A DNA stretch of 64,000 nt, taken from the NCBI RefSeq assembly GCF_000334895.1, contig NZ_BAFM01000003.1:124001-188000 (forward strand). Reading direction: 5' to 3'. Positions within the stretch are counted from its first letter, which is position 1. Every line of letters begins with the position of its first letter. Position numbers and translations under genes: made by a program. Below the pieces are notes generated by a model. It was not told where the DNA came from and searched no databases. It worked only from the letters and a program-made list of their open reading frames with translations. This document shows positions 474 through 3,551 of this stretch, piece after piece. Origin of the DNA: Halococcus agarilyticus (GTDB lineage Archaea > Halobacteriota > Halobacteria > Halobacteriales > Halococcaceae).

Positions 474-2576
474 GTGAACCCGTCGTTCGAACCGGTGGAG
501 CGAGACACGGGCATCGCGGTCGTGGACTCGATAGAGCGCCACCGGTACGCGCTCACGACACCGGAGGCGGTCGCGCCGACGGTGGCGGACACCGACCGAT
601 TCCGGTTTCCAGTCGACGCCGCCGTCTCGATCCACACCGCCGCGCTCTCGCTGCCGAGCGTGGTCTCGGTTCACCTCCGCGACGAGTCCGGAACGATCGT
701 GGCCCAGGCCGAGCACTTCGCCAACGAGGAGCTGCCACACGGCGAGTACACGATCGAACTGAGCGCGCCGATCAAGCTCTACTGTCGGGTCGAGAGCACG
801 GTCACGGTGACCGCCGACGTCGAGGGCATGACGATCGAGTTCGACGACGCCACCGAGGTGGTGGTGGGCGCACGATCGCACCACGAGCGTCCCGCCGCGA
901 CGGTCACGACCACGACCGATCCCGAGGACATGATGGCCGCGATCTCGACGTTCGGCTCCGCGCTCAAGACGACCTCGCCCGAACGCTCCTACCCCACCCT
1001 CCGGGGCCACCCGCCGACCGTCGAACTCGGCGACGAACTCGACCTCGCGGGGCTCGAACCGCCGGACACGGGCGTGACCATCGAAGTGCCTCCCGAGTGC
1101 CGCTCGATCTTCGTGGTCGCACCGCTCGCGTACTATCTCGGGGCGCGCGTCCGCCCCGGCGACGAGCCCCGCCTGCGAACGGATCGGGGGCTCGACCACT
1201 CGCTCGACGGGCCCTGTGGGTTCGAGCGGACCGTCGAGCGCACGCTGAAGGGGACGTTCTTCCTCGACTGCCTCGCGCGGACCGAGGGGCTCTACCCCGT
1301 GGCGCTCCACGAGCGTGAGGCGGTCGAGGCGAACATCGATCTCGACCTCGCCGCACTCTACGATCGACCGATCGCCGAACGCCTCGACGCGTATCTCGAC
1401 GTGCCGTTCGCGGCCGTCGAGGACCACCTTCCCGAGTGGAAGCTCACCTCCCACGTCGAGCCCGCGCCGACGAGCGTCGAGACGCTGCCCTTCCTCGTCG
1501 ACGATCTCGCGGTCGTCCGGTGTGCGAGCACGGAGTCGGTCGCGCGCTCGACCACGCTGACGTTCGACGGGGGGGTGGAGGCCGCGAGCGCGGGGCGCGA
1601 GGACGCGTTCACCCGGAGTGCGAGCACCACGCGGAGCACGGGTTCGAGCGTGGGCCCGGGGATCGACACCGAGTTCGTGAGTCCCGAGGCGACCGACTCG
1701 CTCGAAGCGGCGTGGGTCGGCGAGGGGCTGCCCCTCGGTGCGAGCAAGACCTCGGTCGAGGCCTACCGGAACCGCCTCGACAGGACGCCCGCCGACGGCG
1801 ACATCGACATCACCGTGGTCTGCAACGACGCCGAGATGGCCGAGGAGCGCGACCTGATCGAGGACGTCTACGGCGACCGCGACGAGCTGCCGTTCGACGT
1901 CTCGCTGCATCGCGACCTCACGACCGCCGAACTCGAAGGGCTGCTCTCGACCCGGACGGACTTCCTCCACTACATCGGCCACGTGGACGAGGGCGGGTTC
2001 GAGTGTGTCGACGGCGAGCTCGACGCGAACACGCTCGACACCGTCGGGGTGGACGCCTTCCTGCTCAACGCCTGCCAGTCCTACCGCCAGGGGATGGCGC
2101 TGCTCGACGCCGGTGCCATCGGCGGGATCGCCACCCTCACCGACGTGCTCAACTGCGAGGCGGTCCGGATGGGCCGGACGCTCGCGGCCCTGCTCAACGC
2201 CGGCTTCCCGCTCCAGTCCGCCCTCAACATCGCCCGCGGCGAGAGCATCATGGGCAACGAGTACCTCGTGGTCGGCGACGGCGGGCTGACGATTGCGCAG
2301 CCAGCTGGCGCTTACCCCAACCTCTTGAACATAGAACGAAATGGCGATACGTTCTATGTTGAAATGAAAACATATCCATCCACCCGAGGCGAAATTGGTG
2401 GTTTAGTCATACCATGTATGGAGGACGACAAATATTATTTGTCACCTGGTAGTCTTCCTTCCTTCGATCTGTCTTACGATGAACTACAGGAATTCCTATC
2501 CCTCGAAAACGTGCCTGTGAAGACAAGTGGACGGCTGTCGTGGGCTACTGAATTGGACGTTGACGAGATTAGCTAA
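474..2576 (+). CDS. CHAT-domain caspase-like cysteine protease, mosaic C-terminus
   Basis: A 700-residue protein with a GTG start. The C-terminal half carries the caspase-like CHAT core: F497-LHYIGH with His503, then a hydrophobic strand ending in NACQS with Cys534, followed by GAIGGIATLTDV. The spacing and order fit the catalytic His-Cys pair of CHAT peptidases. The N-terminal 450 residues are unrecognised and include a Ser/Thr-rich linker near 370-400. The first 600 codons have normal haloarchaeal GC-rich third positions. From about 2290 to the stop the codons turn AT-rich (ATA, TTA, AAA, TAT), so the last 95 or so residues look recently acquired. No TPR repeats are obvious. The natural substrate is unknown. 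The stop overlaps a tiny convergent gene by 4 nt. Confidence 0.8.
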   Translation: MNPSFEPVERDTGIAVVDSIERHRYALTTPEAVAPTVADTDRFRFPVDAAVSIHTAALSLPSVVSVHLRDESGTIVAQAEHFANEELPHGEYTIELSAPIKLYCRVESTVTVTADVEGMTIEFDDATEVVVGARSHHERPAATVTTTTDPEDMMAAISTFGSALKTTSPERSYPTLRGHPPTVELGDELDLAGLEPPDTGVTIEVPPECRSIFVVAPLAYYLGARVRPGDEPRLRTDRGLDHSLDGPCGFERTVERTLKGTFFLDCLARTEGLYPVALHEREAVEANIDLDLAALYDRPIAERLDAYLDVPFAAVEDHLPEWKLTSHVEPAPTSVETLPFLVDDLAVVRCASTESVARSTTLTFDGGVEAASAGREDAFTRSASTTRSTGSSVGPGIDTEFVSPEATDSLEAAWVGEGLPLGASKTSVEAYRNRLDRTPADGDIDITVVCNDAEMAEERDLIEDVYGDRDELPFDVSLHRDLTTAELEGLLSTRTDFLHYIGHVDEGGFECVDGELDANTLDTVGVDAFLLNACQSYRQGMALLDAGAIGGIATLTDVLNCEAVRMGRTLAALLNAGFPLQSALNIARGESIMGNEYLVVGDGGLTIAQPAGAYPNLLNIERNGDTFYVEMKTYPSTRGEIGGLVIPCMEDDKYYLSPGSLPSFDLSYDELQEFLSLENVPVKTSGRLSWATELDVDEIS

Positions 2577-2713
2577 GGCCCGATGGTCCCAGCGTTATTG
2601 CCGGCGGCCACGGGAGCTGCCTGAGACAGCAGCACCATCAGTCCGAACAGCGCGCTGAGCAGTTTCGGGTGGTTCTTGAGCTCGGATCGGACGTCGATGT
2701 TGTCGTCGGACAT
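2573..2713 (-). CDS. 46-residue single-span membrane peptide (DUF7503-like)
   Basis: The ATG at 2713 opens a 46-residue frame: charged N-terminus MSDDNIDVRSELKNHPK, one hydrophobic segment LLSALFGLMVLLSQA, and a small Gly/Ala/Asn-rich tail ending in TIGP. From memory it resembles the haloarchaeal small-protein family with the pattern K-x-P-(8-10 hydrophobic)-LLSQA, which I associate with DUF7503. It is convergent with the CHAT protease and shares 4 nt with its stop. The upstream DNA (2714-2810) is AT-rich and likely holds its promoter. The function is unknown. It could be a protease target or a membrane-active peptide. Confidence 0.7.
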   Translation of the reverse strand: MSDDNIDVRSELKNHPKLLSALFGLMVLLSQAAPVAAGNNAGTIGP

Positions 2714-3146: not shown

Positions 3147-3338
3147 TTACGACAGTTTCTCGCGGTGGTCCTGCCAGCAGTCGGCGCAGAGCTGCCGATC
3201 GACGGACACCCGCTTGACGCCCGTCTCGTCGCCCATGAACTGGCTCGTCGAGCGCGTCTCGTCCTCGATTTCGAGGATCACCCGGTAGCGGGGACGCTCC
3301 TCGGAAACCTCCTCGCCACACATGGGACAGGCGTTCAT
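3147..3338 (-). CDS. Small zinc-finger protein, unknown function
   Basis: A 63-residue protein starting MNACPMCGEEV. Two Cys-x2-Cys knuckles, C4/C7 and C51/C54 (CADC), probably bind one zinc ion, with a charged beta-type segment between them. The start at 3338 is chosen because the reading frame farther upstream loses haloarchaeal composition. Such stand-alone zinc-ribbon microproteins are frequent in haloarchaea and mostly uncharacterised. It is divergent from the lipoprotein gene at 3552. Confidence 0.7.
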   Translation of the reverse strand: MNACPMCGEEVSEERPRYRVILEIEDETRSTSQFMGDETGVKRVSVDRQLCADCWQDHREKLS

Positions 3339-3551
3339 TTTACGGATAATAGAGCGAATAGCACATAAAATTACTGCTCGCGTCAGCGACTCGACCGCGT
3401 GAATCTTTTCCCGATCGACGGAAAATCCAGTCATACATCAAAGATGATAAAATACTCTCGACCGATGCACGGTCCCCGAGACTCGATAGCGCCCCACGGA
3501 TTCGACGAACGGACCAGAGAGGGTATTGGCGAGCGGTTCCAACGATCGACG

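Follow-up and report, generated by a model that had tools for sequence, protein, structure and literature searches.

The 64,000-nucleotide stretch of Halococcus agarilyticus DNA analyzed here (the window) carries a gene for a caspase-like CHAT protein and, convergent with it, a tiny gene for a peptide. An earlier note made from the sequence alone had proposed the peptide as a cleavage target or a released membrane effector and the pair, if recurrent in haloarchaea, as an undescribed two-part system. Both genes were followed across haloarchaeal genomes by neighbor counts, identity profiles, trees, substitution rates, and predicted structures, and the features of the locus are collected in Table 1.

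The protease, its peptide, and their pairing

The CHAT protein was assigned by fold and catalytic residues. The Pfam scan gave zero matches for the window protein, TPR included, and PF12770 (CHAT) was matched weakly by three of 21 homologues (E up to 0.01, best 0.0011). Searching PDB sequences with the CHAT profile returned nothing, and PADLOC and NCBIfam gave no convincing match to either the protein or the peptide. In the AlphaFold2 model (pLDDT 91.8, pTM 0.92), residues 321-610 took the separase/SAVED-CHAT/gingipain fold according to Foldseek (separase 5fby, E 7.6e-8; SAVED-CHAT 8tl0, E 4e-7) and to VIA-align against that group (Z 18-20). The two residues singled out in the earlier note, His503 (codon 1980-1982) and Cys534 (codon 2073-2075), were present without exception in alignments of 21 and of 140 homologues; by predicted fold and His/Cys dyad the protein belongs to the CHAT/separase fold group, with proteolysis as its predicted activity. 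Near invariance was also found for the motif SPERS.PTLRGHPP of the N-terminal part in the 140-homologue alignment. The C-terminal domain (CTD) modelled alone gave a weaker structure (pLDDT 73.6), for which Foldseek returned nothing below E 0.001; VIA-align reached at most Z 5.1 over 54 residues, so that no fold assignment or relation is claimed.

Table 1. Coordinates of the protease and peptide features within the window.
Feature	Positions	Strand	Basis
CHAT-fold cysteine protease gene	474..2576	+	ORF, GTG start, 700 aa; 140 homologues aligned; AlphaFold2 model
N-terminal part, residues 1-350, conserved: beta-rich domain followed by alpha/beta part	474..1523	+	Secondary structure of the model
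Linker, residues 361-393, low confidence, probably disordered	1554..1652	+	pLDDT <50
Caspase-like domain, predicted active, residues 410-603, with H503 and C534	1701..2282	+	Dyad, Foldseek, VIA-align
CTD, residues 604-700, hypervariable; CHAT half of the exchangeable cassette	2283..2573	+	Identity profiles, GC, trees
DUF7503 peptide precursor gene, 46 aa, ATG start	2573..2713	-	PF24335 match; ORF
Leader, residues 1-37, signal-peptide-like, ending in PVAA; conserved peptide half	2603..2713	-	Position statistics, 151 unique peptides
Nonapeptide tail GNNAGTIGP, variable; peptide half of the exchangeable cassette	2576..2602	-	151 precursors, tandem forms, co-inheritance with CTD

The window peptide matched the Pfam family DUF7503 (PF24335) with 59.1 bits against a cut-off of 27 (E 3e-16). 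The earlier note had read the peptide as one membrane span; the hydrophobic stretch was present in nearly all family members, but it fits the shape of a signal peptide better, with a short core followed by A/V-x-A/G, K/R before it, and an uncharged tail behind it, and some relatives are without a hydrophobic segment. The PVAA end of the window leader places small residues at -3 and -1, and among the 151 unique precursors HP+22 was occupied by A or G and HP+20 predominantly by A or V, resembling a signal peptidase site. The tail after this site was nine residues long in 113 precursors and eight in 33, terminating with Gly-Pro in nearly all of the 151. The rest of the precursor looks like a Sec leader that would be cut after A-x-A in most species. 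In the L116, L119, L124, L128, and L129 peptides the tail stops after a GNGG-like stretch with no Gly-Pro, as if truncated, and several CTDs of this group look alike.

The pairing of CHAT with DUF7503 was near-obligate and far beyond chance. In the window the two genes share 4 nt at their stops, as the earlier note had observed, the shared letters being CTAA. At 20 of 20 homologous loci from named genomes, the peptide gene directly followed the CHAT stop in convergent orientation. Among 116 haloarchaeal genomes, CHAT was identified in at least 103 and DUF7503 in 95, and 122 of the 125 DUF7503 matches were convergent with one of the CHAT matches listed, all but one of the 122 within 300 nt. Two more DUF7503 genes (L073 and L074) were convergent with a CHAT gene beyond those listed, and the remaining one of the 125, in genome G049 (L102 5107-6631), lay 1.4 kb from an intact CHAT gene on the same strand. 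In two further genus-level samples CHAT accompanied 55 of 55 peptides. The stop-to-stop distance was exactly -4 in 28 of 142 loci. Overall, the pair was present in ~80% of sampled haloarchaeal genomes, and the family search found the peptide also in the model Haloferax volcanii. The neighbor count proposed in the earlier note therefore gave overwhelming co-occurrence, and the recurrence of the two-gene pair in haloarchaea was confirmed; as for its being undescribed, no published mention of DUF7503 and no description of a CHAT domain in haloarchaea or Halobacteria was found in a literature search that reached few subscription papers or preprints.

A second, more distant CHAT clade was without DUF7503 and was used as a control; its members (L055, L056, L057, L058) often occurred in tandem, as two or three copies whose ORFs overlap or abut. 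A divergent DUF7503 gene (L074 4998-5252, genome G023, contig C5; 28.6 bits) beside a divergent CHAT gene is possibly a link to this clade. Genes also occurred between the two partners, namely a response-regulator-like gene in L102 of G049, where the tail was without Gly-Pro, and an apparent NAD synthase gene in L162 (2538-3392).

A survey of recurrent neighbors identified DUF7503 as the only constant CHAT partner. The gene that recurred most often immediately upstream of CHAT, on the same strand at ~41 of 111 loci, encoded DUF7504 (PF24336; e.g., L116 5652-7130, L003 1935-2705, and L004 5201-5899), in one case fused to HalOD1, and could act as a regulator or as a third component. A gene for a Cdc6-like AAA ATPase lay directly upstream of CHAT in L151 (5700-6941) and 14 other loci of one genome group. 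The opposite-strand gene upstream of the window CHAT (L167 6329-8236, extending to window position 236) resembled a receiver-PAS-GAF-type sensor histidine kinase, and a small ORF at window positions 3147-3434 (-) with CxxC pairs (CPMCGEE...CADCWQ) likely encodes a zinc-binding microprotein.

An exchangeable block at the converging 3' ends

Identity profiles of 106 close CHAT pairs revealed ~0.9 identity over residues 1-600 and about 0.48-0.68 over the last 97. In DNA, the divergent block spanned ~300 bp and comprised the CTD, the final 8-9 codons of the peptide gene, and the short spacer between them; it was near-unrelated between close relatives with flanks mostly 93-100% identical. Between L044 and L046, for example, the CHAT core was 93-100% identical (ragged alignment end aside) and the region beyond the tail 87-100%, compared to 40-67% for the block, and a similar central dip was found in L006/L007, L051/L098, and L099/L086. 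The CTD was kept in the same-tail pairs L147/L148 and L117/L121. In the control clade without the peptide, genus g6 had identities of 0.83 in the core and 0.80 in the CTD (190 pairs) versus 0.77 and 0.38 in genus g7 of the paired clade, and in genus g10 the CTD fell to 0.47 in 28 pairs with core identity of at least 0.95. This diversity of the cassette is not universal, since both CTD and tail were conserved among closely related CHAT proteins in genus g6.

Of 142 paired genes, 140 had a CTD poorer in GC than the core (0.531 vs. 0.648), and in the window the GC content was 48.4% in 2286-2605 vs. 69.9% in the CHAT core. No near-identical cassettes were found between distant genera. Reshuffling from silent copies within a genome was rejected as a source of new cassettes, as one CHAT gene and one peptide above the cut-off were all that the window genome contained, and CTD matches in 59 genomes sit in long ORFs rather than in short orphan cassettes.

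The two halves of the block varied together. Over 103 close pairs, the identity of the CTD correlated with that of the tail (rho 0.62, partial 0.64) compared to -0.01 with the core and 0.08 with the leader. These pairs are not independent and a permutation test was therefore made within each of two genera, where the partial Mantel correlation of CTD with tail was 0.28 in one (n = 29) and 0.47 in the other (n = 24), with p 0.0002 in both. In trees of genus g7, six of eight strong CTD clades conflicted with a strong core split, yet coincided with tail classes; one such clade joined five species with the tails NQAAATPGP, NQATSVAGP, NQAAVNPGP, NQGATTAGP, and NQAASNPGP. By these sequence comparisons, CTD and tail are co-inherited. 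Residue covariation between them was weak, with three position pairs exceeding the 95% level of the maximum under shuffling within groups. As both halves are physically adjacent, the association is one of co-inheritance and not of binding, and the correlation could come partly from physical linkage in one exchanged block.

Synonymous divergence in swapped pairs was 0.42 in the core and 0.48 in the leader against 2.7 in the tail and saturation in the CTD, which makes the block much older than the flanking sequence. The dN/dS within a class was 0.13 in the tail and 0.145 in the CTD, both core-like, and these ratios showed purifying selection inside a class. No positive selection on the tail was detected within class, so that the variation seems to be old and acquired by exchange, not through fast amino-acid change. 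Such a pattern, as balancing selection would leave it, is the mark of old allele classes held apart while flanking recombination spreads them.

The nonapeptide as a possible ligand, inhibitor, or substrate

The nonapeptide as the unit of the precursor received independent support from the genus of genome G079. Three of its 12 species had ordinary precursors (e.g., ...SQAGTVAA followed by GNSGAISGP) and nine had tandem forms (L034, L255-L257, and L260-L264), in which the hydrophobic part was lost and 2-15 copies of nonapeptides such as GNGGGISGP followed a start that was mostly MSE.DS-like. The copies were spaced by [YFMS][TN]AD, their start corresponded to the predicted cleavage site of the ordinary precursor, and all tandem forms overlapped the CHAT stop by 4 nt (L257 being partly masked). 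Because the nine species dropped the hydrophobic part and multiplied the nonapeptide, what these sequences conserve as a unit is the tail rather than the membrane segment. As these species are without a leader, secretion would not be the general route, barring another exporter.

On balance, a matched receptor-ligand specificity pair is slightly favored, in which the CTD would read the nonapeptide and control the attached protease. The C-terminal nonapeptide of the precursor (GNNAGTIGP in the window) would be the ligand and the CHAT CTD its cognate recognition domain, direct binding of the ligand switching the caspase-like protease. Since the convergent layout juxtaposes the specificity-coding 3' ends, recombination in the flanks could replace lock and key together. 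The persistence of many old allele classes across species points to frequency-dependent selection, and selection for rarity would maintain numerous classes, much as with pheromone groups or loci of self-recognition. We infer a social role, either as a strain- or kin-specific signal or as a self/non-self check, with proteolysis as the output and perhaps cell death or regulation as its consequence. The ligand might come from neighbors as a pheromone, meet CHAT on cell fusion, or be an internal inhibitor, and the convergent layout would suit each variant because lock and key become one exchangeable block. A secreted tail would have to re-enter the cell by import, as the CHAT sequence has no leader of its own.

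An intracellular antitoxin-like inhibitor is a less probable role, although a credible one: the nonapeptide would keep its own CHAT inactive until the match was upset by viruses, other invaders, or the mixing of cytoplasms during mating and the protease was released, and viral evasion or incompatibility between strains would drive the diversity. It agrees with the leaderless multi-copy form, which implies that the tail is able to function in the cytoplasm, the expected location of CHAT, with the service of CHAT relatives in defense (named families among the structure matches), and with mating by cell fusion in haloarchaea (PMC5496957). However, the uncharged tail and the K/R before the hydrophobic stretch predict that the tail leaves the cytoplasm in most species, PADLOC gave no match, no CHAT relatives were found in phage records or IMG/VR, and a self-matching pair needs an extra reason for staying diverse.

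That the peptide is a substrate cut by CHAT, with the CTD as a substrate-docking exosite that follows the tail, is improbable. An invariant Ala-Asp does precede each tandem unit after the first (..AD before GN..), similar to a caspase site with Asp at P1, and an Asp-specific caspase-like activity without an identified gene is on record for Haloferax volcanii (PMC3615174); however, single-copy precursors have A-x-A and not Asp before the tail, and the Asp may reflect merely the common ancestry of the repeats.

The two remaining readings are very improbable. A membrane effector set free by the protease, as the earlier note had envisaged, or a pore-forming one, would account for the hydrophobic segment of nearly all members, but is disfavored by the loss of that segment in nine of 12 species of one genus with the tail retained and multiplied, and by the finding that the polar tail is the part co-varying with CHAT. 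A hotspot of recombination or mutation where the two 3' ends meet, tail and CTD being functionally unlinked, would agree with their adjacency on the DNA and with the lowered GC of the CTD, but the block edges coincide with functional boundaries (the end of the protease domain and the leader/tail border), the within-class dN/dS of ~0.14 in tail and CTD indicates constraint, and sister CHAT proteins without the peptide have no such block.

Relation to known systems

Extended to the biology of haloarchaea, the receptor-ligand reading leads to a tentative proposal, held at somewhat under an even chance, of an archaeal allorecognition or pheromone system with a caspase-like protease as the receptor of a strain-specific nonapeptide and lock and key in one cassette. 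Its possible roles include kin signaling, species preference in mating, and regulated death, and it may supply the gene for haloarchaeal caspase-like activity, for which gene homologues are lacking (PMC3615174). Haloarchaeal mating proceeds by cell fusion with a mechanism of own-kind recognition termed unknown (PMC5496957), and several signal molecules of archaeal communication are still unknown (PMC12240190); the ties to caspase-like activity, mating, and quorum sensing are offered as leads. If true, the locus would be a polymorphic self-recognition or peptide-signaling locus in archaea, a pattern described there in none of the papers searched, and would place a caspase-fold protease under direct control of a short allele-specific peptide. 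It would then bear on kin recognition before or after fusion, on archaeal signals, and on the gene behind the caspase-like activity.

The RRNPP systems (Rap-Phr, PlcR-PapR, AimR-AimP) combine a precursor of 21-50 aa, whose C-terminus yields the mature peptide only a few residues long, with an adjoining gene for a cytosolic receptor, and precursors with internal duplications are on record (PMC10075063). The criteria for them include a Sec-secreted propeptide of 10-100 aa whose signal peptide is called by SignalP and a receptor of 250-500 aa with TPR, encoded by directly neighboring genes (PMC10075063). The small leader-type precursor directly beside a putative receptor gene is alike here. In contrast, the putative receptor is a 700-aa CHAT-fold protease with a beta-rich remainder in the model, the genes are convergent and archaeal, one genus has leaderless tandem-copy precursors, and signaling is a function that we infer. 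CHAT-DUF7503 is not placed among the RRNPP systems, as its putative receptor is a protease without a TPR match.

In the agr and comQXP systems of Gram-positive bacteria, adjacent ligand and receptor parts co-vary within an otherwise conserved locus and so define specificity groups. Adjacent parts with conserved flanks vary jointly in CHAT-DUF7503 as well. Unlike those systems, the precursor varies in its tail only, the cassette has no membrane sensor kinase or processing enzyme, and the protease is the putative receptor.

SAVED-CHAT (PCaspase), the TPR-CHAT/Csx29 of Craspase, and separase are alike in predicted fold and His/Cys dyad. They differ in that no SAVED, TPR, or CRISPR partner was seen here, with gRAMP/Cas7-11 not recognized among the recurrent CHAT neighbors, and in that the haloarchaeal protein has its own N-terminal domain, a hypervariable CTD, and a constant DUF7503 partner. 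The fungal heterokaryon-incompatibility loci het-Q1/het-Q2 and rcd-1 join long-lived polymorphism to regulated death and self/non-self recognition, het-Q2 being a protease (PMC12881547). Their likeness to CHAT-DUF7503 is in evolutionary pattern only. PADLOC and Pfam scans of the pair found neither a gasdermin-like pore protein beside CHAT, which would mark a gasdermin-protease system, nor another family of that kind. Finally, the window peptide belongs to a Pfam family without an assigned function, in which the tail-CTD cassette and the tandem-copy form are newly observed features.
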